Shown one piece after another: positions 1,417-36,992 of a stretch of 64,000 bases of DNA. Under the pieces are notes generated by a model that worked only from the letters and a program-made list of their open reading frames with translations, did no database searches and was not told the origin of the DNA. The DNA lies in the NCBI GenBank assembly GCA_027452205.1, contig DAIDGV010000023.1:62001-126000 (forward strand), given 5' to 3'. The position numbers and the translations under genes were made by a program. The number at the start of each line of letters is the position of its first letter. Position 1 is the stretch's first letter. The stretch is from a candidate division FCPU426 bacterium. Its GTDB lineage: Bacteria > Oederibacteriota > Muellerivitia > Muellerivitales > Muellerivitaceae.

Positions 1417-4392
1417 TTAGCGAAGGATCAGCAATTTAGAGATCGAGTTTTTTCCATTAATGACAACAGAGACATAGTAAAGACCGTCGGCTAGTTGGGC
1501 TCCCATGCGGTCCAAGAGCCGCACAGCCACGGATTGACCGGGCATGACCAATTGAGAAGGCGAATCATAGACCATGCGGAAAGCCAAGGTATATATCTTG
1601 ATCTTCACGTTCACGGGGGTCTCGAGACCAGGATAGATCGAGATAGTGGAACCAGTGCAGGGATTAGGATAAATGACGGGCGCGGGCAGGCCCAGCGGAG
1701 TCGGGGTAGCGGTGAAGGGCGCCGTGGCGGTGCCGGTAGGAGTGGTCGTTGAAGTGGTTGAAAAGGTATTGGTGAGTATGGGTGTGGCGGTACCGGTGGA
1801 GGTGTTGATTATCTTAACGGTATTTGTCGCAGTCGCGGTCGTTGTGTAAGTCTGTGTGTTGGTGGCGGTGAGGGTGACGGTTTGAGTGTTTGTGACCGTT
1901 TGGCTATTGGTGACCGTGGGTGTACTGGTCAGGGTCTGGGTCGAGCTTTGGGTCGGGCTGAGGGTAGAGGTAGAGGTGTTGAGCGGCGTGTTAGTGATCG
2001 TGAAGGTTTGAGTGACGGTGTTGGTCGCGGTCGAAGTCTTGGTCGAAGTGGTCGTGGGGGTACTGGTTCCGGTCATGGTATTGGGCGCCGTATTGGTCGT
2101 GGTGGGCGTATAGGTCACGGTGTGGGTAGCGCTGTTGGTGGCGCTATTGGTAACGGTCGCGGTATTGGCCAAAGTCGCTGTCGATGTGGCTGTTGAAGTG
2201 ACCGTTGAGGTGGAGCTTGCGGTGGGGCTATTGGTCAAGGTTTGAGTGGAAGTGTCGGTTTGGGTATTGCCGATGGTCGGGGTGGAGGTGTCGGTATAGG
2301 TACTGGCCGGGGTCAAAGTAGATGTCGAGGTAGCGGTGTTAGTGTGAGCGGCGGTAAAGGTCATGGTAGGAGTAGCTGTTTGTGTGGCGGTGCTGGTGGA
2401 TGTATTGGCAGGAGTACTCGTAGAGGTTGAGGTGGCTGTGTTAGTGGAGGTACGTGTTGCGGTGGATGTAGAGCTGTTCGTGGCGGTCGAAGTGGCGCTG
2501 GCGGTGGCCGTGGAGGTCGCGGAGGCGGTCCTTGTTTCTGTGGAAGTAGCGGTGGTGGTGGCGGTGGGGGCGGTCAGACAGCTGTTCGTGACCAGATCGA
2601 CATCATCGATCCATAAATAAGCGGCTCCATTGGTCTGCGGCTGAAAGACCAATTGAGTGGCGTTCTGCAAATTCTGCGCGAAGGTACCGCTATTGCCATT
2701 AGGGTTGGAAAACGTGGTGGAGTTCAGGTTGAGGGTAACCTGGGTCCAACCCATGGAAGTGACGTTAAAAGGAGCCTGCCACCAGGAATAGCCGGCCCCG
2801 CCATAGGTTTGGGTGGAGGCCACCTTGAACCAATAGGCGCCGGGGACCGTTGCCACGACCCAGAAAGATACTTGTCCATAATTCGAGAGATTGACCATTC
2901 CAGTGCCGGCGCCCGTGGGATTGGCCGTGGCGCTGAGCCCGGTGAAACATTCGCCGTAACTTCCGCTGGCAATACTCCAACTAAATTGCATGCTGTAACC
3001 CGAATAACCGGGGGAAGTGTAATTGAGCGCCCCGCCGCTGCCGGATCCGAAAGAAGTGGACCAAGTACCGTTGAATGTATTCGTTCCCCCCGCGGCGTTA
3101 TTGAAATCGTCGACCACCGTAACGCAACCCGCGCCGTAGGTGGGGGCGGGAGTCGGACTGAAGGTGGGGGAAGGGGTGGGGCTTAAACTGCAGTCCGCCG
3201 GTACGGTTGTGTTATATGGAGAGTTGGTCCAGAAGGACTGCAAGGTATTGTAAGCCGTTCGATAGGTTCGAGGTCCGGTGCTTCCGATGGCTAGAGCGGT
3301 GCTCAAGCCGAACCATTCCTCGTTGGCGTAATTGTCCGGAAGGACATTGAGGGTTTCCCCGCAGGAATCGTGGGTGCTATCCCCGCCACATTTCCACCAT
3401 TCGTCGCACCACTCAAAGACGCATCCACCTAAAAGTTTATTGGAAGAGTTCAAGGCGCTTAGGTTGTTGCCGATCGCATTGGGCCACACGTCGCTATAAA
3501 AGGATGATTGGTCCGCATCATCCTCAGTGCCCGTATTGTTGTTGTAGGCGTCGTTTCCGAATTCGGTGATCAATAAGGGTTTGGTCAGTGAATAAGGTGA
3601 GATGATGTTGCTGGTCCAAGTGGAGGAAGCGGCCAGATAGACATTTACGGACCAGAGGTCGATAGAAGAAACCAAGCCGGTCAAACTGCCGTTATTGATA
3701 TCGTTGTTGTTCACTAGAACGGCGGTATAGGGGTGGCTGGTATCCGCGTTGGCTTTTTCATAAGCGATGACATTCTGATAGAACTGGAACATTTGGGTAT
3801 CGCTCATGGGTGTCAGGTTGGTCGAACTGTTGTTCTCGTCGCCCAGTGCCCACATGAGAATGTTGGGGTAAGTATTCAGGTCCTTGAAAAGGTTGATGAC
3901 GGCGGCGAATTGGGTCTCGATCTGGGTTAGGTTGGCGGAGACGGTGTAGTCCACGTTATAGGGAACCCAAAAGTCAGGGATCACGTAAATGCCGTCCGCG
4001 GCGGCGGCCGCGAGAAGGCGGTCGTAGTTAGCTTTCATAGCGGCATTCACACTACCGTCCGTATCGATCAAGGCTGCGTAGTTAAAATAGACGCGAATGG
4101 TGTTCACCCCCATTAATTTCATCTGAGCTAGATCCGCTAGGGTGACGTTGTATCCGTAGGCCCATTCTTGGTCATTGTCGGCGATGGGGACAGGGTTGTA
4201 GTTAACACCCCGAACCATAAAGGGGGAACAGTTGACCAGCAATTGATGCCCCGAAACACTGACGGAGGCGGCATGGGTTAGACCGGGCATTAGCCAGAGA
4301 CTCAATAGAAACGTTCCAAGGATGGAACGCAACGTAACGACGGTCGTTCGTGAAATGGGGTGGATTTGTTGGTTATTCACGGGCCTTTTCAC
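1417..4392 (-). CDS. Secreted clan GH-A (GH5-like) glycoside hydrolase with CBM11-like beta-sandwich, Thr-rich linker and C-terminal sorting-like domain
   Basis: Signal peptide; FMVRGVNYNP, GVNTIRVYFNY, ILMWALGDEN, LLITEFGNDA motifs; DDFNNAAGG...AYLWIDDVDLV beta-sandwich; long Thr/Ser linker; C-term YPNPCTGS...GLYYVSVVINGKNSISKLLILR. Confidence 0.75.
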   Translation of the reverse strand: MKRPVNNQQIHPISRTTVVTLRSILGTFLLSLWLMPGLTHAASVSVSGHQLLVNCSPFMVRGVNYNPVPIADNDQEWAYGYNVTLADLAQMKLMGVNTIRVYFNYAALIDTDGSVNAAMKANYDRLLAAAAADGIYVIPDFWVPYNVDYTVSANLTQIETQFAAVINLFKDLNTYPNILMWALGDENNSSTNLTPMSDTQMFQFYQNVIAYEKANADTSHPYTAVLVNNNDINNGSLTGLVSSIDLWSVNVYLAASSTWTSNIISPYSLTKPLLITEFGNDAYNNNTGTEDDADQSSFYSDVWPNAIGNNLSALNSSNKLLGGCVFEWCDEWWKCGGDSTHDSCGETLNVLPDNYANEEWFGLSTALAIGSTGPRTYRTAYNTLQSFWTNSPYNTTVPADCSLSPTPSPTFSPTPAPTYGAGCVTVVDDFNNAAGGTNTFNGTWSTSFGSGSGGALNYTSPGYSGYSMQFSWSIASGSYGECFTGLSATANPTGAGTGMVNLSNYGQVSFWVVATVPGAYWFKVASTQTYGGAGYSWWQAPFNVTSMGWTQVTLNLNSTTFSNPNGNSGTFAQNLQNATQLVFQPQTNGAAYLWIDDVDLVTNSCLTAPTATTTATSTETRTASATSTATASATSTATNSSTSTATRTSTNTATSTSTSTPANTSTSTATQTATPTMTFTAAHTNTATSTSTLTPASTYTDTSTPTIGNTQTDTSTQTLTNSPTASSTSTVTSTATSTATLANTATVTNSATNSATHTVTYTPTTTNTAPNTMTGTSTPTTTSTKTSTATNTVTQTFTITNTPLNTSTSTLSPTQSSTQTLTSTPTVTNSQTVTNTQTVTLTATNTQTYTTTATATNTVKIINTSTGTATPILTNTFSTTSTTTPTGTATAPFTATPTPLGLPAPVIYPNPCTGSTISIYPGLETPVNVKIKIYTLAFRMVYDSPSQLVMPGQSVAVRLLDRMGAQLADGLYYVSVVINGKNSISKLLILR
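1700..2580 (-). repeat. Low-complexity Thr/Ser/Ala/Asn linker-coding repeat
   Basis: ACN/TCN-codon repeat (reverse strand) encoding TSTATxTxTxT; produces spurious Val/Gly/Arg-rich ORFs on the other strand. Confidence 0.85.
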
Positions 4393-6507: not shown

Positions 6508-9500
6508 TTGTCGAATCGTCTGAAAACGATTACAGCTCTAAAACGAAGGATCTGCGCCACCCTGGTGCTATGGTTCTTTGTGGCCGCTCAACCCCTTTGG
6601 GCGGGGTTGAATGTGACTGTGACGGGTTGTCCCTGCACCAGTGGAAACTGGCCGGGTCTTGTTTTTAACGTTTGCAATACAACCTCGGCAGTTTACCAAG
6701 TAACAGGAGTTCAATTTCAAACTCCATCCTTTAAGATCCCGGCAGGTAATTTTTACAACAGCGCTCCGGTGACCGAATGGGGCACAGGCCCTTATAACTA
6801 TCAGGTGTGGCTGGCTAATACGGTCCAAGTTTTTCCACCGACCCATTGCGACACATCGGACCTTAACGGGAGTTTCAGTGTAACTTCCGGCGATGGTACG
6901 CCCTACAACGTGCAAGTGATGTACAAGACTGGATCTTGCGTCCAACCCCCGACGCCGGCCACGCCGACTCCCATTCCTAATTCCAGTTGCGCCGCGATGG
7001 ATACGGCCTTGACCACACTGACTTCGCAGCCCAGCTATTACAGCACGACCTGCGTACCTTGGGCCTATAACGGCGGGATCGACGGCGGGGGATTCATCAA
7101 CACCTTCGAAAATCAAGGGACCATGACCCCCTATACCCAGATCCAAATCGGATATTCCAACACGCCTATCGCGATCAACGGCACTTGCACTTTCGATCCC
7201 ACCAGCATGGGTGGGCCTCAATACATGATGGCGGTAGCGGCGGGCCAGGAATATTTCAATATGGACATGATCAATTTGTTGGCTATCGGCGCCCGTGAGA
7301 ACGCGGCGGCTTTGCAGGGTGGCGATTATTTTGTGGGTAATGCAGGCAATGAATGTCCGGCTTTGGGTGTAGGTGGTGTATTCAATGTCGAGGATTCCAC
7401 TTTCATGCGGGATATCCAAGGTTTCCCGGAACTGTATCCTCAGTATGGGACCTGCGTGGCCTCTTATACCAGCGTGGCCGGGGCTCTCGCGGGTTGTCCG
7501 GGTGTAGGGCCGAGCGGCGACACTTACCTCTACTTCTTCACCCATACGGCCGGCTTCAGCCCGGGCGGCGGGAACTGTTTATCAGGCGACTCGGCCCAAA
7601 TGATCAATTCAGTGGTCTTGGCGGGTTGCGATCTGTGGTTCACCTATGACCTGTTGGGTCAAGCCAACGGGTTGTGCTTCAAAGAACAAATGGAGAACGG
7701 CGCCGATCAATATGCCGCTATTAAAATGATCGACGGGGCTTATAACAGCGGTGTTCACGCTGGTATTGAAGCGCCTATCTTGCCGCCGACAGTGAGCAGT
7801 TTGGCTAACCCCAATTTGGGTTCACCCAATGGCGCTTACACGAACACACTGATCAATTTCATCACTCAAGTCCGGACGGACTCCTCTTGTAACGGTTCTA
7901 CTATCTATGACGGACAGATATCCTGGGCGGAAGTGGAAAAGTTCTTTTTTGGTAACGGCGGGACCGCTGCGGCCCAGGGTGATGGCGGTCTCTTACTTCA
8001 TTTCAATCTGACCAACGCCCAAAGAACGGCTTTGGAGAATGACCTACTATGCGCTTTCACCAAATTGTCAGCTCATTGGGGCGGGTCTTATGTCAGCTAC
8101 CGCTATGACTGGTTGACCATGATGCGGGTCGCCAAGAACTATCTCAACACCACACTGCCGATCCCCACCTCGACCGAGTTCAATCAGGACCTGGCCAATT
8201 TTGGTGGCTACACTGTGGCCAATCCGACCTGTCCGGGGGTGGTCAATGAAACAACATATCCAAGCATGACCATTACCTCGCCGGCGACGGGCCTAGCTTT
8301 GAACAACCCTGTTACGGTTTGCCCGCCCTTTAATCTGTCGATGAGCGCTACGGATAGCAGCTCGGTCTCCATCGCCCAATGGACGTTGGACCCCACTTGG
8401 ACCACATGGACCCCTTTTGCGGGCACGGGACCTGCCTATACCGCCTCGCTTACATCCACTACACCAGGAATGCCCGCTTCTGGGCCAGTCACGGCTTGGG
8501 TGATGGTGGGAAACCCTTGCTATAACGATATCGTTCAAGAGGTCTATCTTTATGTGCAGTGTTCTGTGAACACGGCCACTTCCACCATGACCAGTACTCC
8601 GACCCAAACGGCCACAAAGACCAGTACTCAAACGCCGACGAATTCGCCGACAAATTCGGCTACCCAAACGCCCAGCAATACGCCGACGAACTCGGCCACT
8701 CAAACGCTAACCGAGAGCTCTACCTCGACACCGACGGTGACGAATACCCAAACCTCCACCGCTACAGTGGCCAGCACTTCGACTTTTACGAGCACCTTAA
8801 GCCCCACTTTAAGCGCGACCATGACGAATACGGCAACGGTCTTGAACACCGCTACGGCCACAGCGACCCAAACGGCCTCGTCCAGCTTTACGCCGACAGC
8901 TGTTAACAGCTATACCTCCACGGCCACCTTGAGCAGTACGGCCACTCTAGCGGATTCGGCCACCAGCACTCAGACAGAAACTTCCACATTGACCTTGGCC
9001 GATACAGCTACCAACACCCAGACCGAAACCTCGACGGCTACCTTGGTCGATACCGCGACGCCTACCGCCACCCTGACCTCAACATTCACCTTGGCGGATA
9101 CAGCTACTTACACCCAGACCGAAACTTCCACGGTGACCTTGGCCGATACGGCCACCAGCTCCCAGACCGAAACGGCTACCAGCACCTCCACTTCCACCGG
9201 GGTTGCCACCAACACGCACACCATGACCCAGACGGCGACCGTCACCCCCACGGTCACTTTTACCCAAACCTGCACCTCCACGAACACTTGGGAACCGACC
9301 TGGACCTTTACGGTGACCCCGACCCCAGTGAACTTCTTCATCGGCGAGAACCTATACCGCTCCTCGGGACCTGACCTGCCGATCCATCTCTCGGTCAAGG
9401 AATACCCGGGTAAGGTAGGGTTATATATCTTCAATTCGGCGGGAGAACATGTCCGGACCCTCATTGAAACGAATATTACGGGTCCCTACGAGAATACTTT

Positions 9501-9612
9501 TGGGTGGGATGGAAAGAACAAATATGGCGCCAAATGCGCCTCTGGTATCTACGTCATTTATGCGTTAGAACCGGCCAGGACCCTTAAAGGCCGGGTGGTC
9601 CTGATCCGTTAA
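6508..9612 (+). CDS. Large secreted protein of unknown function with Thr-rich linker and FlgD-like C-terminal domain
   Basis: Probable TTG start, signal peptide LVLWFFVAAQPLWA; Cys-rich N-terminal region; linker about 8568-9330; C-term ...FNSAGEHVRTLIETNITGPYENTFGWDGKNKYGAKCASGIYVIYALEPARTLKGRVVLIR. Confidence 0.75.
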   Translation: MSNRLKTITALKRRICATLVLWFFVAAQPLWAGLNVTVTGCPCTSGNWPGLVFNVCNTTSAVYQVTGVQFQTPSFKIPAGNFYNSAPVTEWGTGPYNYQVWLANTVQVFPPTHCDTSDLNGSFSVTSGDGTPYNVQVMYKTGSCVQPPTPATPTPIPNSSCAAMDTALTTLTSQPSYYSTTCVPWAYNGGIDGGGFINTFENQGTMTPYTQIQIGYSNTPIAINGTCTFDPTSMGGPQYMMAVAAGQEYFNMDMINLLAIGARENAAALQGGDYFVGNAGNECPALGVGGVFNVEDSTFMRDIQGFPELYPQYGTCVASYTSVAGALAGCPGVGPSGDTYLYFFTHTAGFSPGGGNCLSGDSAQMINSVVLAGCDLWFTYDLLGQANGLCFKEQMENGADQYAAIKMIDGAYNSGVHAGIEAPILPPTVSSLANPNLGSPNGAYTNTLINFITQVRTDSSCNGSTIYDGQISWAEVEKFFFGNGGTAAAQGDGGLLLHFNLTNAQRTALENDLLCAFTKLSAHWGGSYVSYRYDWLTMMRVAKNYLNTTLPIPTSTEFNQDLANFGGYTVANPTCPGVVNETTYPSMTITSPATGLALNNPVTVCPPFNLSMSATDSSSVSIAQWTLDPTWTTWTPFAGTGPAYTASLTSTTPGMPASGPVTAWVMVGNPCYNDIVQEVYLYVQCSVNTATSTMTSTPTQTATKTSTQTPTNSPTNSATQTPSNTPTNSATQTLTESSTSTPTVTNTQTSTATVASTSTFTSTLSPTLSATMTNTATVLNTATATATQTASSSFTPTAVNSYTSTATLSSTATLADSATSTQTETSTLTLADTATNTQTETSTATLVDTATPTATLTSTFTLADTATYTQTETSTVTLADTATSSQTETATSTSTSTGVATNTHTMTQTATVTPTVTFTQTCTSTNTWEPTWTFTVTPTPVNFFIGENLYRSSGPDLPIHLSVKEYPGKVGLYIFNSAGEHVRTLIETNITGPYENTFGWDGKNKYGAKCASGIYVIYALEPARTLKGRVVLIR

Positions 9613-11018: not shown

Positions 11019-12638
11019 TCAATTCCTGAACTCGCTGGGACTGCGCTTGACCAACTTATGGAACAAACGGCTGAAATGGTCCCGGTTCTTATAGCCCACC
11101 TGATAAGCGATCTCCCCGATGGACAGGGAACTTTTCTTTAAAAGGACCTTGGCACGCTCCATTTTGGTCTCGTTAATGTATTGCAGGGGGGTCTGACGGG
11201 TGCTTTCCTTGAAGATCCGGATGAAATGCTCGGGTGTGACATTGAGGTATTTGGCAATCTCCTCGACTTTGATGGTCTTTTCCAGGTTGGTCTGGATATA
11301 CCCAATGGCTTTGGCGGTCAGGCCTGAATAAAGCTGTTGGGGTAATAGGGAAGCGAACCGATCTTCCATTCGGTCGATGGTCTCGGCGGAGGAAGCTTTT
11401 CCTTCCAGGAAAAAGGTCAACTCTTGGCCTCCGATGGAGAGCCAATCCAAATAATCCCCCTGAAAATAGCCGCATTCCTCCATGATCTTTCCGTGCCGCA
11501 GGAAGAACTCCGCCTGGTCTAGATAAGGCCGCTTTTGCCGCAGCAATTTCTCCAAATAGACGGATTTCATTCCGGGAAAGGGCGTTCCCAGATTTCCCGC
11601 GTACCAGTTCTGGAAGGGATCTTCCATGATCTTGACCAGCGCCTTGGAAGCGGCCTCGGGATAGCGGGTGTTCTTGGGAATGACGTAATTCAGGCCGCCG
11701 ACCATGGACTTGCCCGGTGTCTTGAAACTGGCGGAGGGGAGGGGACACCAGCCGAACTTGTCCCTTTCGCTTGCGGGTAATTGATTGATCATCTCGATCC
11801 CGTCGGACCAATGGTGCATGAAGACGCAATGGCCTTCCAGGAAGGCGCGGTAGGGGTTCGAATAATCCCAGGTCAGGACATAAGGCGGGATCATCCCATT
11901 CTTGAAAAAACGCTCAATTTGCTTGAGGGCGGTCTCCAGGGCTTTTCGGTTCAATACCCAGTTGGGGCCGTTCTCATAAAGGTCCGCGCCCTGGGACCAA
12001 AGATAGTCCAGGAAGACCGAGAAACGAATAGGGGCGTTGAAGTTGATCAGTAGTCCGAGCAATTCCGCGCTGTTCTCGCCCTTGAGGATCGTGAGGGTTT
12101 GTTCCTCCAGGTCGTCCCAGGTCTGTGGGGGCTCAAAAAAATATTTCTTCAAAAGGTCTCGGCGATAAAAAAGAAGGCGGATCGAAACGTGCTGGGGCAC
12201 GCTGAAGAGATTGTTACCGACCACGCCCTTGCGCCAACCCATATCCAGGAAAGTATATTGATAGCTGGGGAAGAGATTCTCCAGAGGTTGTAAAAGTCCT
12301 TGCCGCCCATAGTGCGCGGCGGCACCCAAATTGGTGATGGCCAATAGTCCTAGATGGGTCTCAGAGGCGTAAAGTGAGGCGGGTTTAGCGTCTTTTGCCG
12401 GTTCCCACTGGATCTCTTTCTTGCCTTGAAAGAGCCTGTCCTTTTCCAAATGCCGCCGCAACGCTTTGGTATAGATGGATTTTTGCGCTTCATCGGGGAA
12501 GAAGGGATAGCCCAGTTCCATGATGTTCGTCTTTTTGTTCTTGGGTACGCCCGGTCTTTTTGAACTCAAGTTGGATCCCTCTGGCCATGCCTTGAAACGA
12601 TTTTTCGGGTTACCGTTTTCCTCAAAAAAGAACATCAA
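11019..12638 (-). CDS. One-component regulator: family-1-like extracellular solute-binding-protein domain fused to C-terminal AraC HTH
   Basis: SBP-like ITNLGAAAHYGRQGLLQPLE...FLEGHCVFMHHWSDGIEMINQL...GGLNYVIPKNTRYPEAASKALVKIMEDP; AraC HTH EEIAKYLNVTPEHFIRIFKESTRQTPLQYINETKMERAKVLLKKSSLSIGEIAYQVGYKNRDHFSRLFHKLVKRSPSEFRN; no signal peptide. Start may be ATG at 12635 or Met40 at 12521. Confidence 0.85.
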   Translation of the reverse strand: MMFFFEENGNPKNRFKAWPEGSNLSSKRPGVPKNKKTNIMELGYPFFPDEAQKSIYTKALRRHLEKDRLFQGKKEIQWEPAKDAKPASLYASETHLGLLAITNLGAAAHYGRQGLLQPLENLFPSYQYTFLDMGWRKGVVGNNLFSVPQHVSIRLLFYRRDLLKKYFFEPPQTWDDLEEQTLTILKGENSAELLGLLINFNAPIRFSVFLDYLWSQGADLYENGPNWVLNRKALETALKQIERFFKNGMIPPYVLTWDYSNPYRAFLEGHCVFMHHWSDGIEMINQLPASERDKFGWCPLPSASFKTPGKSMVGGLNYVIPKNTRYPEAASKALVKIMEDPFQNWYAGNLGTPFPGMKSVYLEKLLRQKRPYLDQAEFFLRHGKIMEECGYFQGDYLDWLSIGGQELTFFLEGKASSAETIDRMEDRFASLLPQQLYSGLTAKAIGYIQTNLEKTIKVEEIAKYLNVTPEHFIRIFKESTRQTPLQYINETKMERAKVLLKKSSLSIGEIAYQVGYKNRDHFSRLFHKLVKRSPSEFRN

Positions 12639-12668
12639 CTTTAGTCATATCATATCAAGAATGGTCAT
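12635..12668. promoter_or_regulatory. Tandem 14-bp direct repeat (20-bp period), AraC-type operator candidate
   Basis: TCAACTTTAGTCAT (12635-12648) and TCAAGAATGGTCAT (12655-12668); closely matches 34382-34415. Confidence 0.65.
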
Positions 12669-12711
12669 GTGATTTAAATACTTCTTCCAGGTACCAAAGG
12701 CTAAGCTTTCT

Positions 12712-15700
12712 ATGGTTTCGAAGGGCATCAATCCCTGTGCCCGGGAAAGCCTATTATCCCCTGAATGTTGTGTGTTTAAGGGCATTTTCGGTCTTCGGAC
12801 GGAGGGTTCTTTGAAGAGAACTGATCACATGTCTCATATCGTTCGTTGTTCCATGAAAACGGTTTCAGTGGTGATTTTCGCTTTCCTCCTCCTCTTCACC
12901 CGGCAAGCCTTGGCGGATTACAGTTATGAAAACATCCCGGCGGGCTATGGCCTGGCTTGGAGCGACGAGTTCAACGGTGCCGTCGGCAGTTTGCCTAACT
13001 CCGCCAATTGGTCCTATGACACGGGGATCAATCAACCCAACAACGAACTGGAAAACTACACCAACAGCACTAATAACGTCCATGTGATCAGCGATCCCAA
13101 CGCTGTGGATGGTAAGTCCCTCGTCATCATCGCCCAAGATCCGGGCGGTAATAACGATCAAATGGGAAACTACACTTCAGCCCGCATCGATACCGCGGAC
13201 AAACAAACCTTCACCTACGGCTATATGGAAGCGCGCGTGCGCATGTCTTATGGGCAGGGAATCTGGCCCGCCTTTTGGATGCTGGGCAATGACATCAACC
13301 ACGGCACCAACTGGCCCTATTGCGATGAGATCGACATCATGGAAAACATCGGCAATACCGGTGACCAAGGAACCAACCACATGTCGCTTCACGATGGAAA
13401 CGACACTACCTTCTATCCGGCGCTTCCGGGTGGACAGCTTTATCACAATGCTTATCACACCTTCGCGGCCTTGTGGCAACCCAACCAGATCCAGTTCTTT
13501 GTGGACGGAAATCTGATGGTGACCGATACGCCGGCCAGCATGGGCAATAACTGGGCTTTCAACAACAATCCGAATTTCTTCCTCTTGAACTGTGCCGTGG
13601 GCGGCGCTTGGCCCGGCAACCCCGACAGCAGCACGTCTTTCCCGCAGACCATGTATGTGGACTATGTGCGCGCTTACCAGACCGGGTTCGCCACCCCCAC
13701 GCCGGTGGTCCAATCCACCTGGCGCGTGCGTTGCGGCGGCGACAACTATACGGATAGTCAAGGCAATCTTTGGACGGCGGATAGCAATTTCACCGGCGGT
13801 TGGCCCGCGGCCAACACCGGCACCGCTGTGTCCGGCGCTTTGCCCGCATCTTCGGACGGCACTTTATACCAATGGGAACGCTACGGTAATACTACCGGCG
13901 GCCAGACGCTGACCTATACCTTCAATGTCCCTACTGGTTCCAATTACCAGGTCACGATGAAGTTCGCGGAAGACTACTGGACCGCAGCGGGCCAACGTTT
14001 ATTCAACTACGCGATCAATGGCACGACCGAAGCCACCAATTTTGATATCTTTGCCAACGCAGGCGGACAGTTCAAAGCCCTCGACAAGGTCTATAACAAC
14101 ATCACCCCGAATTCGAACGGACAGATCGTCATCACCTTGTCCCCGGGCAGCGCAGACAATCCGAAAGTCGACGCCATTCAAGTCGTCCCCATGGCGGGCG
14201 GTGCCACCAACACAGCTACTTATACCCCGACCGCTTTAGCCACCAATACGCCCACCGCCACCGCGACCCAAGTTGCCGGGAACAGTGTTTGGCGCGTGCG
14301 CGCCGGTGGACCTGCCTATACGGATAGCCAAGGTAATGTTTGGGCAGCCGATGAGAACTTCACCGGCGGTACTGCCGCTACCGGCACCAACGCCATTTCA
14401 GGCGCCTTGCCCAATTCGGGCGATCAAGCCCTGTACCAAGACCAGCGCTATGCCTCCACGTTCAGCTATAGCTTTGCCGTGCCGACGGGTTCCTATCAAG
14501 TGCTCCTCAAGTTCGCGGAAACCTATTGGACCGCCTCGGGTCAACGGGTCTTTAATGTGGGCATCAACGGTTCCACGGTCTTGACCAATTTCGACATCTT
14601 CGCCACCGCAGGTGGCGCCAATATCGCCGTGGATAAGGTGTTCAATAACATCTCGCCGGTGAATGGCGTCATTACGCTTAATTTTGGCCCCGCCAGCGCG
14701 GACCAGGCCATGATCACGGCCATCCAGATCGCGCCTCAGTCCCAAGCCCAAGCCACACCGACACGCACCTTTACGGCCACACCGACCACGGGCTCCTCCG
14801 GGGGTAAATTGCCCTATCAAGTGGTGGGTTACTGCTATACGGGCAATAAGGCCAGCGTCTCCAGCCTGACCGGGTCCGGCGGCAGCATCAATTGGAGTAC
14901 CGACGTTCCTTGGCAGGACCTGACGGTGGCGGTGGACGCTTTCATGATCCCCAACACCAATAACACCTTCAGCAACGGGGGCGCCAAGAACGCGGCCCTG
15001 ATCAGCGCGGCCCACGCCCATGGCGTACGTTGTATCGTCTCCATCGGCGGCGGCGGGCAGGACGGCGCTTTTCCGACCGTCTGTACCTCGGCTAACCGGC
15101 AAAATTTCGCCTCGGCGGTCACCGCTTTGATCGCCCAATATGGTTATGACGGCGCGGATATCGACTGGGAAAGCCCGAATTCGGCGGCCCAGTCTGACGC
15201 GACGGTCATGATGCAGGACATCTACACCAAGATCAAAGCCATGGCGCCCTCCAGCGTGGACGGCCTGCCCCGTACGTTGTCTTTCGCCACGGTGGATTAT
15301 GTGTTCGGTATCTACAACATGACCACTTTGGCCAATTACACGGACTGGCTCTTCTATATGGGTTACGACTGGTACGACTGTCCGAACCTCTATAACGGTC
15401 CCTTGAACCTGGAAAAGAGCGGTATCGCCAGCATCACCAATGGCACCACCTGGAGTTACCCGATCAACAAGGTGGTCCTGGGCTGCCCGCTCTATACGAA
15501 CGACTACAACACGTCCAATTGCACGGCCAGCGAATATAACGTCCTGTCCATCCTGCATTTGGGCACGCCGGGTTCCTATAACAGCACCTACGCCGAACAG
15601 GCCTATACGGCGCCCAACGGCCATACGGTCTATGTGGATACGGCTCAAAGCTATTGCGACAAGATCAATTACGCTTATAGCAACCACCTGAAAGGCATCG

Positions 15701-17595
15701 GCATGTGGGATGTGGGTATGGCCCTGCCTTATACCGACAGCGCTGTCTCGGGTATCTGGAATACCATCGGAGCTCAAGCGAGCTGTTTGAACATCGGCCC
15801 TACAGCTACCCCGACTAGGACGGCTACCCCGGTGATCGCCTCCACTTGGCGCGTCAACGCGGGAGGTCCCCAATATACGGACAGCCTGGGCAATGTCTGG
15901 GCGGCGGACGAGAATTTCACCGGCGGCACCGCCGCAGTGACGACCTCGACCATTACCGGTGCCTTGCCCACGGGGGCCCAGACGCTGTATCAATCGCAGC
16001 GCTATGGCAACCCCTTTAGCTACAGCTTCAACGTGCCAGCGGGGAACTATCAGGTCACTTTGAAGTTCACTGAGACCTACTGGACCGCGGCGGGCCAGAG
16101 AGTGTTCAACGTCTCGGTCAACGGTTCGACCGTTCTGACGAACTTTGACATCCTGAAGACGGCGGGATCGCAGAACAAGGCCATCGACGAGGTGTTCAAT
16201 AACATCGCCCCGTCTGGCGGGACCGTCACCATCACTTTGGGACCTGCCAGCGTGGATAACGCGATGGTGGACGCTATCCAGATCGTCCCGCAGCCTTCCA
16301 CCCCAACTTTTACGCCGTCCAACACCACCACCAAGCCGTTCACGGCCACCAATACGGTGACGTCAACGCAGACCTCGACGATGTCATCCACGATGATCTC
16401 AACGAACACCCTGACCGATACGGCCACGGTGGCGAGTACATCGACGAACACGTCGACCATGACCAACACCAGCACTGTCTCCAATACCGCTACGAATAGT
16501 TCTACGGTGACGGCCCCTAACACGGCTACGGAAACTTCGACGCTGACGCCGGTGTTGACCAGTACGCCCACCAACACCAATACGGCAGCTAATACGGCCA
16601 CGTCCACGAACACAGCGGGCAACACCGCTACCTCGACGAATACGGTCATCAATAGTGCCACCAATACCAGCACGCCGCCCAATACGGCGACCAATACCAA
16701 TACGGCCTTGAACACGGCGACCAGCACCAGTACGTCCGTGAACACCGCCACGAACACGTTGACCAGCACGAATACGGCCCCTAACACGGCCACTTCGAGC
16801 AATACACCGGTCAATACGGCCACTTCAACGTTGTCCTTCACCTCGACGGCAACCCGGACCAATACGGCGCTCAACACCGCGACCGCGACGGCCTCGTCGA
16901 CGAAGACCTGGACCGCGGTATTCACCAACACTTCGACGCCGACGCTGACCTTGTCGCCGACGAAGACGAATACCTTCACCTTTACCGCGACCAAGACCAA
17001 CACCGGCACACCGACCAAGACGGCCACGCCGTCCGGTCCTTGCGCGGGGGTCCCGGCTTGGAACGGCAATATGGTCTATTACGCCATCGGGGCAAAGGTG
17101 ACTTATAACGGGGAACTGTACCAATGTATCCAGGCCCATACGTCTCTTTCGACCTGGATGCCCTCGGTTACCCCCGCTTTGTGGCAAGACCTGGGCACTT
17201 GCGGGGCCACGGGCAATGTGGTGCAGATGGCACAGGTGCCGGGCCAAGCTTTAATCCAAAGCGCGAACCCCAAGACGCCGGTGGAAACGCCTCAAGTGCC
17301 CACTTCGACGCCGACGGTCGCCATCGGCAACCATCCTTTGGTCGTCCCGAATCCGGTCACTTCGGATACGGCGAACCTGCGCCTGCCCATGACGATGGCG
17401 CAGGACGTGTCGGTAAAGATCTACACGGTGTCCATGCGGTTGGTACAGACGGTGAACTACGGAACCGTGAACTCGGGTAGCGTGCCTGTGAAACTGAACG
17501 ATAAGAACAACATCCAGTTGTCGAACGGACTTTATTACTTCCGTGTCCAAGCGAACGGCATTTCTTGGATCGTGAAAGTGCTCGTATTGCGCTGA
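12712..17595 (+). CDS. Secreted multimodular GH16 - malectin - malectin - GH18 - malectin - Thr linker - CBM5/12-like - sorting domain enzyme
   Basis: GH16 motif DEIDIMENIG; three STWRV(R/N)xGGxxYTDSxGNxWxAD...FDIF malectin/CBM57-like modules; GH18 motif DGADIDWE; CBM5-like AWNGNMVYYAIGAKVTYNGELYQCIQAHTSLSTWMPS..P..W; C-term GLYYFRVQANGISWIVKVLVLR. Real start probably ATG 12829 or 12853 (signal peptide MKTVSVVIFAFLLLFTRQALA). Confidence 0.85.
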   Translation: MVSKGINPCARESLLSPECCVFKGIFGLRTEGSLKRTDHMSHIVRCSMKTVSVVIFAFLLLFTRQALADYSYENIPAGYGLAWSDEFNGAVGSLPNSANWSYDTGINQPNNELENYTNSTNNVHVISDPNAVDGKSLVIIAQDPGGNNDQMGNYTSARIDTADKQTFTYGYMEARVRMSYGQGIWPAFWMLGNDINHGTNWPYCDEIDIMENIGNTGDQGTNHMSLHDGNDTTFYPALPGGQLYHNAYHTFAALWQPNQIQFFVDGNLMVTDTPASMGNNWAFNNNPNFFLLNCAVGGAWPGNPDSSTSFPQTMYVDYVRAYQTGFATPTPVVQSTWRVRCGGDNYTDSQGNLWTADSNFTGGWPAANTGTAVSGALPASSDGTLYQWERYGNTTGGQTLTYTFNVPTGSNYQVTMKFAEDYWTAAGQRLFNYAINGTTEATNFDIFANAGGQFKALDKVYNNITPNSNGQIVITLSPGSADNPKVDAIQVVPMAGGATNTATYTPTALATNTPTATATQVAGNSVWRVRAGGPAYTDSQGNVWAADENFTGGTAATGTNAISGALPNSGDQALYQDQRYASTFSYSFAVPTGSYQVLLKFAETYWTASGQRVFNVGINGSTVLTNFDIFATAGGANIAVDKVFNNISPVNGVITLNFGPASADQAMITAIQIAPQSQAQATPTRTFTATPTTGSSGGKLPYQVVGYCYTGNKASVSSLTGSGGSINWSTDVPWQDLTVAVDAFMIPNTNNTFSNGGAKNAALISAAHAHGVRCIVSIGGGGQDGAFPTVCTSANRQNFASAVTALIAQYGYDGADIDWESPNSAAQSDATVMMQDIYTKIKAMAPSSVDGLPRTLSFATVDYVFGIYNMTTLANYTDWLFYMGYDWYDCPNLYNGPLNLEKSGIASITNGTTWSYPINKVVLGCPLYTNDYNTSNCTASEYNVLSILHLGTPGSYNSTYAEQAYTAPNGHTVYVDTAQSYCDKINYAYSNHLKGIGMWDVGMALPYTDSAVSGIWNTIGAQASCLNIGPTATPTRTATPVIASTWRVNAGGPQYTDSLGNVWAADENFTGGTAAVTTSTITGALPTGAQTLYQSQRYGNPFSYSFNVPAGNYQVTLKFTETYWTAAGQRVFNVSVNGSTVLTNFDILKTAGSQNKAIDEVFNNIAPSGGTVTITLGPASVDNAMVDAIQIVPQPSTPTFTPSNTTTKPFTATNTVTSTQTSTMSSTMISTNTLTDTATVASTSTNTSTMTNTSTVSNTATNSSTVTAPNTATETSTLTPVLTSTPTNTNTAANTATSTNTAGNTATSTNTVINSATNTSTPPNTATNTNTALNTATSTSTSVNTATNTLTSTNTAPNTATSSNTPVNTATSTLSFTSTATRTNTALNTATATASSTKTWTAVFTNTSTPTLTLSPTKTNTFTFTATKTNTGTPTKTATPSGPCAGVPAWNGNMVYYAIGAKVTYNGELYQCIQAHTSLSTWMPSVTPALWQDLGTCGATGNVVQMAQVPGQALIQSANPKTPVETPQVPTSTPTVAIGNHPLVVPNPVTSDTANLRLPMTMAQDVSVKIYTVSMRLVQTVNYGTVNSGSVPVKLNDKNNIQLSNGLYYFRVQANGISWIVKVLVLR

Positions 17596-17706: not shown

Positions 17707-20595
17707 TTACCGCAATACCATCACTTTGTGGCGCTCGGTGCGGATCGTCCCGCCGACCGAATTGAAAACGGTGGTCGCCGACACATAGATCCCGCTGGCG
17801 ATCCCCGCCGCGTTCCAAGAGACCTGAGGTTGTCCTGTAGGCGAGGTCAAAGTGGCCACCCTTTCCCCTGATAAGGTATAGAGCTGTACCCGGATGGAAA
17901 AGGACTCGGCGATGGAAGACGCGTCAAAGAACGCTGTCGTGCCGTACTTCACGCCCAGCACGTTGGGGGCGATAGCCACTCCTCCTGCCTGTCCCTGGGG
18001 CGACAGCACCATGACTTCCCGGACGACAGTCCTTTCCTGACTTTCCCCTCCGGACCAATGGATCTGCACCGAATAACCACCCGGCGTGACGTAGGTTCCC
18101 TGGTTGTTACTGCCGTCCCATAATAGGGTCACGGGCCCGGAGCCACTATCCACCACGATGGAGATATCCGGCACCGCGTCCTGGGAAGTGGTGGCAGTAG
18201 CCCCGGGCTTCAGGACATTCGGTCCCAAGACCGCTCCCGCCGTGTTCGCCCCGGCGGCATTCGCGTCCGCGACAGAGGCGTAAAGGTTCCTCACCAGCTC
18301 TCCGGCGGAGTTGAAGATGTTGACCGTCAACGTCCCCAAGTCCCGGTTGACGATGGCCTGTTGGGATACGCTGGTCACGGTGCCCGCGCCGCTGATGCTG
18401 TCCACTTGCACACGGTAGGTCCCATTCGAGACCGGCTGACCGGAATTATTGCTCCCGTTCCAAGTCCCGATGATGACCCCTTGGAAAAGGATATCGATGG
18501 TGCTGCCCGGCCCCTGCAGGGTGGTGATTCGGTTGGTCGCGCTCAGGGAAATATTGTTGATCGGTTGGCCGAACCGTTGGATGGCGATGGTCTTCACTAC
18601 CTCACCCGCGCTGTTATAGATATTCACGTCGATCGTGTACTGGCCCAGCACGGTGACCGGTACGCTGGCAGTCACCGGCCGGGAAGCGCCGGTGAAGACC
18701 CCCTGGGCGAAATTGACGAGGTGAGCGTTGGCCGGGGCCGAGGCGGCTACCTGGGTTCGATAGAGCAATTGATAGACGCCCGTGGATAGGGGCGAGGGAA
18801 GGGCCCACCGCAGTTGATCCGTGGCCGTATTGAAGACCGACTGGGTTCCATTGGGGCTGGAGACGAAAGAAACAAAGGTCATGGAAGGCGGCAAGTCGTC
18901 CGTCACGACCACTCCGCCCAGGCTGCCGCCGGTGACCGTGACCGCGATGTCGTAGGTCAGGATGTCCCCGCCCGCGACCTGGGGTTGGCTGACAATTTTG
19001 CCGATCGACATAACTCCGGTAGGTGTGGCGGTGGGGGAAAAGGTCGGCGAGGCGGTGCAAGTGTTGGTGGCGGTCCGGGTCATGGTCGAACTGGCAGTGG
19101 AAGTGGAGCTCTGGGTAGCCGTATCCGTATAGGTTTGGGTGTGGGTCCAGGTGTGGGTGGCGCTGGGGGTGTAAGTATTGGTGCTGGTCGGGGTCGTAGT
19201 GGCGGTAGCAGTGCTGGTCCGCGTGTTGGTAAAAGTTTCGGTCACGGTCGATGTGGCGGTGTTCACGTTCGTGTTGGTGTTGGTCGGGGTATTGGTGCTG
19301 GTGTTTGCCACGGTCTGAGTGTTGGTACAAGTATTGGTGGCCGTATGGGTGAAGGTATTCGTCACGGTGTTCGTCCGGGTCGAGGTAGACGTGTTCGTGG
19401 AGGTGAAAGTGTTGGTGGGTGTGTTCGTTTGCGTCGATGTGTTCGTGGGGACCGAAGTTGATGTATTGGTCATGGTGGAGGTGTTCGTTGGCGTAGGGGT
19501 ACAGGTCCATACCTGGTTGATGACCAGGTTCGATAACAGGTCCCCGCCGTCCAGATCGGTCTCTTTGGCAATGTTCGTGACCGGGCCTTGCGAACAACCG
19601 GGCGACTTCACCGCGAAGCTTACCGATCCGGACGCGCCGGGCCCCAGGTACCCGACGTTCCAAATGATGTCACTGCCGATCTGGTTGGTGAAAGGCAAGG
19701 GAGGATTTGCGCCGATGGACCCCGCCACCAAATTGGTTCCTGTGGGTATGGTGTCGTTCACTTCCACTCCGGCCACGCCCTGGGTTCCCGGGTTCGAGTA
19801 AGACAAAGTGTAAGTAATGGTTCCCCCCGGCGCCACCGCGCCCGTGGGGTTGTGCGACTTGGTCAATTGCACCGTCGAGGGCACGCAGGTCGACCAGGAA
19901 ACATTGTCCAGGTAAGCCACGCCATAATGCCCGCCCGCGTCGCAGTCATACATGGTCGCGCGCAGTGTCGCTTGCTGGCCCGCGTAAGCGGATAAATTGA
20001 TCGTGTAATTGGTCCAGGGGACATAACCCCAATCGAAATTGCCCGAAGCATTGCAGGCCGCGTAGTTGCCATTGCCTGTCAAACCGCTATAAAGGATCTG
20101 AGCCAAATTATTGGGCCAGTTGTAATTGATGGTCGCCACGACCGTGCCACCGATCAATATATCTATCTGCAATTTAGAGTCGCCGTAAATATCGCCTTGT
20201 AGGTAGTGGTAATCCTCAAAGATGCCCGCGAACCAAAAAGAAAGACAGGACGCACCGGCGGGGACCGTGTCGGTCTGGGAGACCTGTGCCCAATCCTGAT
20301 AGTTGCTATCGCCCCGGCCTGAAAAAAGTTGTACCGCGTTCACGCCGCTTTGAACTTCATTCAACTGTCCGGCGACCGTATTGATGGCAGGACCAGGCCC
20401 CACAACGGAAACGCTCGGGGGACAGGCCACGTTGCCGCCCGAATTGGTCGCGCTGGTCCAACCCGCCAGATTGCCGGTCTCGAACCCCGGGTTGACCCAG
20501 GCGAAAAGGTTATGGGTCATTCCCCAAAAAAGAAAGACTGCTATGGGTTTGATCGCCGCTCGTCGAAGAACATAACCGAACTTCGTCTTGAACAT
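17707..20595 (-). CDS. Large secreted DUF11-repeat protein with FlgD-like Ig modules and sorting-like C-terminus
   Basis: LTKSHNPTGAVAPGGTITYTLSYSNPGTQGVAGVEVNDTIPTGTNLV (DUF11); second DUF11-like region; two NIFNSAGE(V/L)V modules with WDGSNNQG; C-term GIYVSATTVFNSVGGTIRTERHKVMVLR. Confidence 0.75.
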   Translation of the reverse strand: MFKTKFGYVLRRAAIKPIAVFLFWGMTHNLFAWVNPGFETGNLAGWTSATNSGGNVACPPSVSVVGPGPAINTVAGQLNEVQSGVNAVQLFSGRGDSNYQDWAQVSQTDTVPAGASCLSFWFAGIFEDYHYLQGDIYGDSKLQIDILIGGTVVATINYNWPNNLAQILYSGLTGNGNYAACNASGNFDWGYVPWTNYTINLSAYAGQQATLRATMYDCDAGGHYGVAYLDNVSWSTCVPSTVQLTKSHNPTGAVAPGGTITYTLSYSNPGTQGVAGVEVNDTIPTGTNLVAGSIGANPPLPFTNQIGSDIIWNVGYLGPGASGSVSFAVKSPGCSQGPVTNIAKETDLDGGDLLSNLVINQVWTCTPTPTNTSTMTNTSTSVPTNTSTQTNTPTNTFTSTNTSTSTRTNTVTNTFTHTATNTCTNTQTVANTSTNTPTNTNTNVNTATSTVTETFTNTRTSTATATTTPTSTNTYTPSATHTWTHTQTYTDTATQSSTSTASSTMTRTATNTCTASPTFSPTATPTGVMSIGKIVSQPQVAGGDILTYDIAVTVTGGSLGGVVVTDDLPPSMTFVSFVSSPNGTQSVFNTATDQLRWALPSPLSTGVYQLLYRTQVAASAPANAHLVNFAQGVFTGASRPVTASVPVTVLGQYTIDVNIYNSAGEVVKTIAIQRFGQPINNISLSATNRITTLQGPGSTIDILFQGVIIGTWNGSNNSGQPVSNGTYRVQVDSISGAGTVTSVSQQAIVNRDLGTLTVNIFNSAGELVRNLYASVADANAAGANTAGAVLGPNVLKPGATATTSQDAVPDISIVVDSGSGPVTLLWDGSNNQGTYVTPGGYSVQIHWSGGESQERTVVREVMVLSPQGQAGGVAIAPNVLGVKYGTTAFFDASSIAESFSIRVQLYTLSGERVATLTSPTGQPQVSWNAAGIASGIYVSATTVFNSVGGTIRTERHKVMVLR

Positions 20596-27700: not shown

Positions 27701-28050
27701 ACTGCCATGCTGGCGTGGAGGAAATCCAGCAGACCCGTGGCCCAAAAGACCGCGCAGGTCAGGGCCATCAAGGGGCTGCGGATCAAATGCCAATGGCGCC
27801 AGGCCAGCCAGCCGATCCAAAAGGCCATGCCGCAACAGACCGCGTTGAGGATCAGATAGGCTAGGCCCACTGTGACGAATTGGGAAAGGATATGGGGATC
27901 GGTCACGGGCTGGATGGGGTAATGAAAACCGAAAGAAAAACCGAAGGAGTTCAGTAGCAGCGGCGTGAAACAGATAACGAATACGGCCCAGCGCAACCGC
28001 CGGTGATCCAGTTTCTGGTTCAAGGTCGTAAGGAGCAGGAAGTTAGGCAT
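24760..28050 (-). CDS. Membrane PAS-GGDEF-EAL c-di-GMP turnover protein
   Basis: Seven-TM MASE3-like N-terminus; at least three PAS regions; intact GGDEF (RLGGDEFTVLL); intact EAL (GFEALMRWQHP, DDFGTGYSS, AEGVET). Confidence 0.9.
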   Translation of the reverse strand: MPNFLLLTTLNQKLDHRRLRWAVFVICFTPLLLNSFGFSFGFHYPIQPVTDPHILSQFVTVGLAYLILNAVCCGMAFWIGWLAWRHWHLIRSPLMALTCAVFWATGLLDFLHASMAVEPGGDWGPRVDAIAWTWSLSRLFNALGLWATFSILSRPLSTKSFSYRFMPFGLFGIGIAFFLLAQWGFFFPLSGDAAFKQDLPLDLSALFLYAACAPLAWQAYQATPNNSFLIYFLAALWPQALAQLYICLGGTQFLSNGFDLAHGLKFSAYLLTLIGLFKNYFQAHREEIANWSLQQGQSIAQAADEGVLAVDEEEKIVFSNARAAKLFGYENNELLGKPLSHLMSASIKNAAENPVELSGCHKNGKNLSLLVNCRKMTDGTRDSLVCVIRDIAERKEWEGKLADRQKYYLSLYGDTHELAALLDAEGCLLDASPSFETGLGFHPQEVIGKRFVEMVHPDDFSGYQRYFHETLRRSAHSLTNLRMRNKNGTWQLMEITLRNLLDVHAVGGIVANFRDVTEAKKIERALVENMERYELVARGTNGGIWDWNLLTDEVYYSPRWKAILGHNDEEIGATPGEWLDRVHEDDREALENALTAHLNGTTPFLENEHRIRAKDGNYLWVFCRGLAVRNASGKSTRVAGSLIDISARKNSEELFRQQAHYDALTGLPNRTLFLNQLQHNIDLCKRRKNMRFAVLFLDLDRFKGVNDSLGHMMGDELLKETGRRLERCLRPMDMAARLGGDEFTVLLEDIKDAREAVQITARILKELSMPYHLNDQEVFATASVGIAMNTPDYSKPEELLRDADTAMYRAKANGKARYEVFDTDMHTRAVALLQMENDLWRAIEHQEFVIYYQPILSLKTGAITGFEALMRWQHPEKGFLPPSEFIPLAEETGLILPMGEWLLKAACAQNRAWQLMGFPHLKLSVNFSARQLQHPDPLKMIQNILWDTHMNAKTLILEITESIAMKSDPGFETLFKFNFMGIPIAIDDFGTGYSSLSSLKRSPATTLKIDQSFLKNVPNDLDNAAITGTIIAMARNLQLQVIAEGVETEDQVAFLRERDCDEVQGYYFSQPLSAEKATELLIKKDHFAPKLRLVEN

Positions 28051-34381: not shown

Positions 34382-34415
34382 TCAATTTTAGTCATGACAT
34401 ATCAATTTTAGTCAT
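34382..34415. promoter_or_regulatory. Perfect tandem 14-bp direct repeat (20-bp period), AraC-type operator candidate
   Basis: TCAATTTTAGTCAT at 34382-34395 and again at 34402-34415. Confidence 0.7.
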
Positions 34416-34421
34416 TTCATT

Positions 34422-36992
34422 TTGGACCCGGAAAAACAATTGCGCGATAAGCTTTTTATCGGTCCAGAAGCGACGCGTTTGTGGGGTGAAGTTCATTTTG
34501 CCGCAAGCTGGAACTATCTGCTGGGGGGATTTTTGACAAGACGAGGGAAATCGACTCATAACGTTCGCCGAGTCCTAAAAGCGCTTTTGCCGCTCTGGGT
34601 CCTCCTCTATACTCCCGCCTTCGTCCAGGCCGCTCCGCCTTACGCGGTGATCTGTTACGCCTCTACCGGTAATGAATCCAGCGCCACCAACATCAACGCC
34701 GGCGCGGGGCCGGGTATCAATTGGACCACCGACGTTCCCTGGAACGATATTACGGTCGTCGCCGACGCGTTCCTGCTGCCCAACGCCAACTATACCTTCA
34801 GTAATGGCGGGGCCAGGGAAGCCGCGCTCATCATTCCTGCTCACGCCAATGGGGTGCGTTGTATCGTCGCCCTCAGCGCCGGAGCCTTTTCCACCCTTTG
34901 TCAGCCGGGCAATACGGGGCCTTTCGCCTCGGCGGTCACCGCCATGATGATGCAGTATGGCTATGACGGCGTGGAGGTGGACTGGGAACAGACGGGGGTC
35001 GCCAGCCAAGCCAATGCCACTGCCATGATGCAGGCCATGTATACGGCTATCAAAGCCCTGCCCAATTCCACCGTGGACAATCTGCCTCGGACGCTTTCCT
35101 TCACCACCAATCCGTCCTATTCCCAGATCTACAACATGACCACCCTGGGCAGTTATACCGACTGGTGCTTTTTTATGGGCTACGACTGGTATGACACCCC
35201 CGCCACTTACGCCAATGGGCCCCTGAACGGGGTCAATCCATCCATCGCCGGGACAATCGCCAGCATGACCAACGGCAGCCAGTGGAGCTATCCCATCAGC
35301 AAAATGGTGGTGGGCTGTCCGCTCTATACGAACGACTATAACGCGGGGGTCTATTACGACACCCTCTCGATCCTTCACCTGGGTACCGCCCAGGGCTATA
35401 ACGCTTCTTACGCCGAACAGGCCTACACCGCCCCCAATGGCAACACCGTTTATGTGGATACGGCCCAAAGCTTTTGTGACAAGATCAATTGGTCTTTGAC
35501 CTCGGGCTGCAAGGGCATCGGTTTGTGGGACATGGGCCAAGCCCTGCCTTATACGGATAGCGCGGTGACGGCGATCTGGAACACCATCGGCGGCCAAGCT
35601 TCTTGCCTCAATTTGGGTCCCACCAATACGCCCACCAAAACACCCACCCCGGTGGTAGCTTCCACATGGCGTGTGGTGGCGGGCGGCCCCGCTCATACGG
35701 ATTGCAACGGCAATGTTTGGGCGGCGGACGAAAATTATGTCGGCGGTTTGCCAGCCACCTCGACAAATACGATCACTGGCGCTTTGCCTTGCACCACCGA
35801 CCAGGCCCTTTACCAGGACCAACGCTACGGCAATCCCTTTAGCTATGTCTTTAATGTACCGGCGGGGTCATATCAGGTCACGCTCAAGTTCGCCGAAACC
35901 TATTGGACGGCGGCGGGGGCCCGGCAATTCAATGTGTCCATCAACGGCACGACCGAACTGACCAATTTTGATGTTTACGCCACCGCGGGCGGGCAAAACA
36001 TCGCGGTCGACCGGGTATTCAATAATATCGCGCCCTCGGGCGGGGCCATCACCATCACCTTGGGGCCCGCCAGCGTGGACAATGCTTTGGTCTCCTCACT
36101 CCAGATCATCCCGCAGCCTGCCACCGCCACGGCCACTTCCACCCATACCTCTACGGCGGCCTCGACCCATACCGCCACCTCAACCTCCACCGCGACCTCG
36201 ACGGCCACCCACAGTTCGACCTCCACCTCGACCAGCGTGGTCAGTTCCACAGCGACCCAAACCAGCACCCAGACCCCCTCCAACAGCCCCACTGCGTCCG
36301 CGACCGCCAGTTCAACGCCCACCGCCACCGCCTCGGGCACCTTAACGCCGGTCAATACCAACACAGCGGCGAATACGGCTTCATCCACAGCGACCGCCAC
36401 TTCGTCCAATACCGCCACCTCAACGTCCACGTCCAGCATGACGCAGACCTCTACGGCCACGCTGACCAATACGGCCACCAGCACGCCGGCCGTTCCCACG
36501 GCGACCCAGACCAACAGCTCGACCCTCAACAATCCCGCGACCCATACGTCGACCGCGACCGCCAGCTCGACCAACACCCGAACGCCGTCCTCAACGGCGA
36601 CCGCCGCTTTCAGCAATACGGCGACGGCTACGGCCAAAGCGCCGACGGCCACCTGTACCACTACTGCCACCCCGACGCTGACCTCCACCACCGCGCCGCC
36701 GACGCTTACCTCCACGCCTAGCCTGGGTCACCCGGTGGTCTATCCCAATCCGGTCACCTCGGACAATGCCACCCTTCAATTACCGGTGATGAACGCAACC
36801 CATGTCACGGTCGAGATCCTTACCCTGGCGATGCGTAAAGTGCAGACCATATCGGTCGCGCGGGTGGAAGGGAATACCCTGCCGGTCCGGTTGGCCGATA
36901 AGGGGGGGACGACGCTGGCCAATGGGCTTTATTACTTCCTGATCCAAGCCAATGGGCAGAGGTGGATCACCAAGGTCCTGGTCCTGAGATGA
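34422..36992 (+). CDS. Secreted GH18 (chitinase-like) - malectin - Thr linker - sorting-domain protein
   Basis: GH18 YDGVEVDWE; STWRVVAGGPAHTDCNGNVWAADEN malectin module; CTD HPVVYPNPVTSD...GLYYFLIQANGQRWITKVLVLR. Translation probably starts near 34532 (signal peptide RRVLKALLPLWVLLYTPAFVQA). Confidence 0.85.
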   Translation: MDPEKQLRDKLFIGPEATRLWGEVHFAASWNYLLGGFLTRRGKSTHNVRRVLKALLPLWVLLYTPAFVQAAPPYAVICYASTGNESSATNINAGAGPGINWTTDVPWNDITVVADAFLLPNANYTFSNGGAREAALIIPAHANGVRCIVALSAGAFSTLCQPGNTGPFASAVTAMMMQYGYDGVEVDWEQTGVASQANATAMMQAMYTAIKALPNSTVDNLPRTLSFTTNPSYSQIYNMTTLGSYTDWCFFMGYDWYDTPATYANGPLNGVNPSIAGTIASMTNGSQWSYPISKMVVGCPLYTNDYNAGVYYDTLSILHLGTAQGYNASYAEQAYTAPNGNTVYVDTAQSFCDKINWSLTSGCKGIGLWDMGQALPYTDSAVTAIWNTIGGQASCLNLGPTNTPTKTPTPVVASTWRVVAGGPAHTDCNGNVWAADENYVGGLPATSTNTITGALPCTTDQALYQDQRYGNPFSYVFNVPAGSYQVTLKFAETYWTAAGARQFNVSINGTTELTNFDVYATAGGQNIAVDRVFNNIAPSGGAITITLGPASVDNALVSSLQIIPQPATATATSTHTSTAASTHTATSTSTATSTATHSSTSTSTSVVSSTATQTSTQTPSNSPTASATASSTPTATASGTLTPVNTNTAANTASSTATATSSNTATSTSTSSMTQTSTATLTNTATSTPAVPTATQTNSSTLNNPATHTSTATASSTNTRTPSSTATAAFSNTATATAKAPTATCTTTATPTLTSTTAPPTLTSTPSLGHPVVYPNPVTSDNATLQLPVMNATHVTVEILTLAMRKVQTISVARVEGNTLPVRLADKGGTTLANGLYYFLIQANGQRWITKVLVLR

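Follow-up and report, generated by a model that had tools for sequence, protein, structure and literature searches.

Domain architecture of the regulator

The window, the whole 64,000-nucleotide stretch of DNA analyzed here, carries on its reverse strand a gene (11019..12569) for a regulator in which a solute-binding protein (SBP) domain is followed by a C-terminal AraC helix-turn-helix (HTH) domain. The open reading frame (11019-12638, reverse strand) encodes 539 amino acids counted from the first TTG, and Pfam agreed with the domain arrangement that the first-pass annotation had read from it: the sensor part matched SBP_bac_1 (E = 5.6e-16) and SBP_bac_8 (E = 1e-15) over residues 105 to 363, and the C-terminal part matched HTH_18 (E = 1e-21; residues 461 to 539) and HTH_AraC (E = 3.8e-15). 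An AlphaFold model of the protein (mean pLDDT 86.7, pTM 0.75) shows a complete two-lobe SBP of ~400 residues plus the AraC domain, with the helices of the ~100-residue, two-HTH C-terminal domain that marks the AraC/XylS family visible in the model. The top PDB neighbors of the model in Foldseek were SmoF, Thermotoga maritima MalE3 and a Thermococcus trehalose/maltose-binding protein (TM 0.80 to 0.86 over the target), and by both Pfam and Foldseek the sensor has the two-lobe carbohydrate-binding fold of SBP_bac_1/8 proteins. Judged by eye, no signal peptide or lipobox is present: no hydrophobic N-terminal stretch was found from any candidate start, as had been noted at first reading.

SmoF binds sulfoquinovosyl glycerol and MalE3 binds maltose; a sequence profile of the regulator agreed with these fold neighbors and reached the chitin-oligosaccharide-binding proteins NagB1 and NagB2 at a lower score. 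Together, fold neighbors and profile suggest a di- or oligosaccharide as the probable ligand without narrowing it down further; a gluco- or chito-disaccharide or oligosaccharide would be a guess. Elsewhere in the same genome (C13, locus L065, 8113-16747) lies a likely chito-oligosaccharide catabolic cluster of genes for a GH18 enzyme, a ROK kinase, a PIG-L deacetylase, an SIS-like protein, an SBP lipoprotein and a PocR-domain AraC regulator, which does not carry the operator described below. The SBP of this cluster showed no similarity to that of the regulator in BLASTP, so the ligand of the regulator is not readable from the cluster.

Other regulators are known to combine a DNA-binding domain with a sensor of periplasmic type. 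Escherichia coli XylR senses through a LacI/GalR-like (type I PBP) domain, and in Bacillus subtilis Btr (YbbB) an AraC domain is fused to a transporter-type SBP, with the AraC part first, the siderophore SBP second and iron uptake as the target. The window protein resembles XylR (PDB 4fe4/4fe7) in being cytoplasmic and in placing a periplasmic-binding-protein-like sugar sensor before a C-terminal AraC domain, but it has no LacI/GalR-like sensor domain; its sensor is of the maltose-type SBP_bac_1/8 fold, and 4fe4/4fe7 match it through the HTH only (residues 406 to 503). Likewise, the NCBIfam model NF049932, which reflects the likeness to Btr, matches the window protein through its AraC part only. 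SgrR had initially been named as the precedent, and this was apt insofar as SgrR and DsvR, too, are cytoplasmic transcription factors that carry an SBP domain. In DsvR of Vibrio cholerae the HTH is N-terminal and an SBP_bac_5 domain C-terminal, and a putative box precedes the gene for the protein (PMC13060122). However, the window protein differs from both in its HTH, its SBP family and its domain order, having SBP_bac_1/8 first and the AraC HTH last in place of an N-terminal SgrR HTH and a C-terminal SBP_bac_5, and XylR rather than SgrR is the closest precedent for domain order.

Tandem half-sites upstream of two secreted enzymes

The gap between the regulator and a divergent gene holds a predicted operator of two direct half-sites on the forward strand, TCAACTTTAGTCAT (12635..12648) and, 20 bp after it, TCAAGAATGGTCAT (12655..12668). 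A second predicted operator carries one identical 14-mer twice on the same strand, TCAATTTTAGTCAT at 34382..34395 and again at 34402..34415. Both tandem pairs had been reported previously as exactly 20 bp apart and were found again at these positions; a recount of the two 41-bp blocks also reproduced the earlier figure of 32 identical positions out of 41. Searched as a dyad with up to three mismatches, the pattern matched the window twice, versus 0 matches in 100 shuffles.

Each operator precedes a gene for a secreted enzyme. Target 1 (12812..17595, forward strand; start by eye at TTG 12812 after a GGAGGG Shine-Dalgarno) begins 143 bp from the first operator and, by Pfam, contains GH16, GH18, three malectin stretches and CBM5/12, in keeping with its first description as a divergent GH16/GH18 gene. 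Target 2 (34533..36992, forward strand; start by eye at TTG 34533 after a GGGGGGA Shine-Dalgarno; full reading frame 34422-36992) begins 117 bp from the second operator; the GH18 domain previously assigned to it was found, along with malectin. Five window proteins (1417-4392, 6508-9612, 12712-17595, 17707-20595 and 34422-36992) are secreted and have very long Thr/Ser/Asn-rich linkers and a C-terminal domain resembling a sorting tail. Between the two chitinase loci lies a gene for a protein with a MASE3-like domain, PAS repeats, GGDEF and EAL (24760-28050, reverse strand).

The position of the first operator relative to the regulator depends on the start codon. Candidates are the first TTG (12638), TTG 12569, which is preceded by a GAGGGA Shine-Dalgarno, and an internal ATG (12521). 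Overlap between operator and predicted start, as originally proposed, holds only for TTG 12638; in an alignment with the paralog described below, TTG 12569 or ATG 12521 fits the N terminus better, TTG 12569 agrees with the paralog in length, and the preferred start (TTG 12569) lies ~65 bp away from the operator. A weak sigma-70-like promoter for the regulator (12649..12678, reverse strand; 9 of 12 matches, 0.6 expected by chance) overlaps the operator; this would be consistent with negative autoregulation, though the match is close to chance level.

Genome-wide distribution of the operator

A search of the whole 2.89-Mb genome for the dyad, allowing up to three mismatches, gave only three matches: both window sites and C26:15847-15880 (reverse strand). 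A gap of 22 bp separates the end of the C26 site from the start of a paralog of the regulator (C26:15902-17422, forward strand; 51% identical), and the two are the only SBP-AraC genes of the genome, each adjoining a predicted operator. As in the window, the C26 motif is directed away from the regulator and toward a divergent region of secreted genes. Directly downstream of it is a decayed secreted gene (L011:14380-14717, reverse strand) with a CBM5/12-like part, a sorting-tail remnant and in-frame stops. Beyond this remnant, a gene encodes a secreted protein that looks beta-helix-like by eye and carries CBM5/12 and a sorting tail.

A single half-site with up to one mismatch matched five times in the 2.89 Mb (0 times for a reversed control). 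Four of these matches belong to the three known dyads; the fifth, C10:3793, precedes a secreted malectin/GH18 gene, and exactly 20 bp before this match is a second half-site, which had not been selected for. A weight-matrix scan of all GH18 and CBM5/12 gene loci added one further site, C21:26905, between a cupin-AraC gene and a gene with DUF5060, GH18 and CBM5/12. Alignment of these five strong sites gave the consensus ATCAATTTTAGTCAnnTTATATCAATTTTAGTCAT. In a profile built from all five, they scored 35 to 38 bits, as sites used for building match by construction, and the next match scored 12.9 bits.

A leave-out test was made by running a sequence-only profile of the first three sites alone over the genome. 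After its own three sites it ranked C10:3771 (E = 0.011), C21:26903 (E = 0.025) and C10:95254 (E = 0.13). Both of the two best lie upstream of GH18 genes (the genome has eight in all); a rough estimate puts the probability that a random position is on the right strand and within 300 bp upstream of such a gene at P ∼ 0.0004, and that of two out of two at P ∼ 1e-7. C10:95254 keeps the 20-bp period and precedes a gene for a secreted protein with an Alginate_lyase2 domain (E = 9.5e-28). This alginate-lyase-fold gene occupies L078:7118-9217 (reverse strand), with its weaker, sixth operator at 9255-9288. The next match in the ranking, C19:89878 (E = 0.56), falls within a reading frame and was dismissed as noise. 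Contrary to the refuting case that the first-pass annotation had set, the motif is not scattered randomly: three dyads were found in 2.89 Mb, and a profile of these three predicts others.

All six loci carry direct half-sites with a period of 20 bp, and all six sites are oriented toward the enzyme gene, as would fit an activator in contact with RNA polymerase on one side. Distances from the end of the site to a start backed by a Shine-Dalgarno (by eye) are ~176 bp at C10, ~157 bp at C21 and ~136 bp at the alginate-lyase-fold gene. It might be argued that the matching blocks are not operators but what is left of a mobile repeat or of promoter-gene segments that were duplicated, since malectin, GH18 and CBM5/12 modules recur among the enzymes and gene duplication has therefore occurred. 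However, identity among the five strong promoters is ~0.8 to 0.9 in the half-site cores and about 0.25, the level of chance, outside the core, so that gene duplication does not account for the similarity of the promoters; moreover, the period is constant at 20 bp and the targets include unrelated enzymes as well as regulator genes. The duplicated-promoter reading was rejected on flank identity, and descent from a duplication or repeat of any kind appears extremely improbable.

Predicted regulon and mode of regulation

The proposal that one regulator controls both chitinase loci and itself gained from the finding of a site beside both SBP-AraC genes and upstream of four of the eight GH18 genes (the other four have no site), but it was too narrow. 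Because the targets also include the beta-helix/CBM5/12 and alginate-lyase-fold genes, the predicted regulon is one of secreted polysaccharide degradation and not of two chitinases alone. As the predicted operator is in the promoter region of both regulator genes, these are probably regulated through it too.

The account that we consider likely, from sequence and structural modeling, is that a cytoplasmic SBP-AraC one-component regulator binds the 20-bp-spaced dyad and activates genes for secreted polysaccharide-degrading enzymes. An SBP of the maltose/trehalose/glycoside type would have been converted from a transporter subunit into a cytoplasmic sensor, whose lobes would close on an imported oligosaccharide. 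Either a dimer or a pairing of the regulator with its paralog would then bind two direct half-sites ATCAATTTTAGTCAT spaced by 20 bp (two helical turns), and the bound protein would activate the enzyme genes 117 to 176 bp downstream. Such a mechanism would mean that a transporter-type sugar-binding domain has been reused as a cytoplasmic transcription sensor, and for a bacterial lineage about which little is known it puts forward a sugar-sensing regulator whose predicted operator and regulon are concrete enough to be tested.

Against this account stand the four GH18 genes without a site, the modest identity (56%) of the recognition helices of the two paralogs, and the lack of a second genome in which regulator and operator occur together. 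So does the C21 site, which adjoins a different AraC gene of cupin type; another AraC protein could thus bind some of the sites. Carried further, the dyad would be regulatory with another AraC protein (e.g., the C21 cupin-AraC) as its main binder, and the SBP-AraC genes would be mere members of the regulon. The placement of the C21 site between the cupin-AraC and GH18 genes is consistent with this, as is the fact that related AraC HTHs occur in no fewer than five other proteins of the genome. Yet two of the six sites adjoin the only two SBP-AraC genes, whereas only one adjoins the cupin-AraC gene, and that one is the weakest of the five strong sites; the recognition helices of the cupin-AraC also differ from those of the SBP-AraC pair. 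On this evidence, another main binder seems unlikely.

A further proposal concerns the paralogs themselves: they might both use the one operator yet respond to different sugars, and the operator would then integrate two inputs. Both adjoin the same type of operator, and their SBP parts are 50% identical. Their HTHs, however, are 55% identical, which is no higher conservation than in the SBP part, and shared specificity is therefore not proved; the recognition helices (56% identical) likewise do not stand out from the remainder of the chain. Integration of two inputs is accordingly put forward as a tentative idea, somewhat doubtful as it stands, and it is compatible with activation by a sugar-sensing SBP-AraC protein rather than exclusive of it.

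Relatives of the regulator in other genomes

A close ortholog of the regulator (59%) was found in only one of 45 genomes of the phylum, G018 (DBS1-3.bin31), where it is cut by the contig end at the point where the operator would lie; the G018 genome had no match to the operator profile. Run against the 44 other genomes of the phylum, the profile found no strong site and one weak match (G008, 18.4 bits), and the dyad pattern gave only two unconvincing matches with three mismatches in ten relatives. The lack of a strong site in the 44 genomes agrees with the absence of the short regulator from all of them but G018, although this sets absence beside absence. A search of plasmid records returned ordinary SBPs only.

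Remoter relatives are mostly proteins of 735 to 800 residues with a KaiC-like ATPase domain before the SBP and AraC domains. Their SBP and AraC parts align lengthwise with the window protein at 23 to 40% identity; unlike the window protein and its C26 paralog, which lack it, they have an extra N-terminal domain of KaiC/RecA type. Fusion matches numbered eight in G010, seven in G030 and one each in G018, G038, G171 and G306, and fusions of all six genomes had the KaiC-like domain with Walker A and PF06745 (up to E = 1.3e-33), the Pfam scan having taken in some, not all, of the G010 and G030 copies. A relative in G202 is of similar length and has a degenerate P-loop (GNPGTGRDS). No NCBIfam model reached its cutoff on a KaiC-SBP-AraC fusion, no Pfam family model exists for the fusion, and no account of KaiC-SBP-AraC or SBP_bac_1-AraC regulators was found in the literature searched, which is not proof of absence. 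Among eight KaiC-SBP-AraC genes tested, none had upstream tandem repeats clearly above shuffles.

These relatives raise the prospect, which we judge evenly balanced, that the window regulator belongs to a KaiC-less branch of an undescribed one-chain family of KaiC-like ATPase, carbohydrate SBP and AraC domains, with up to eight copies per genome and members in several phyla. Such proteins would sense sugars in the cytoplasm, full-length members might assemble on DNA in an ATP-dependent manner, and the window would supply the first predicted operator and regulon of the family. The KaiC-like ATPase lay beyond the reach of the first-pass annotation, which was based on the window sequence alone, and the window regulator leads to ATPase-SBP-AraC regulators that occur outside its own phylum and for which neither Pfam nor NCBIfam has a model. 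The fusion loci are L081-L087, L015, L016, L089, L090 and L096 (from G010, G030, G018, G171, G306 and G038); by eye, some of the neighbors of the G010 and G030 fusions resemble genes of sugar or polysaccharide metabolism.
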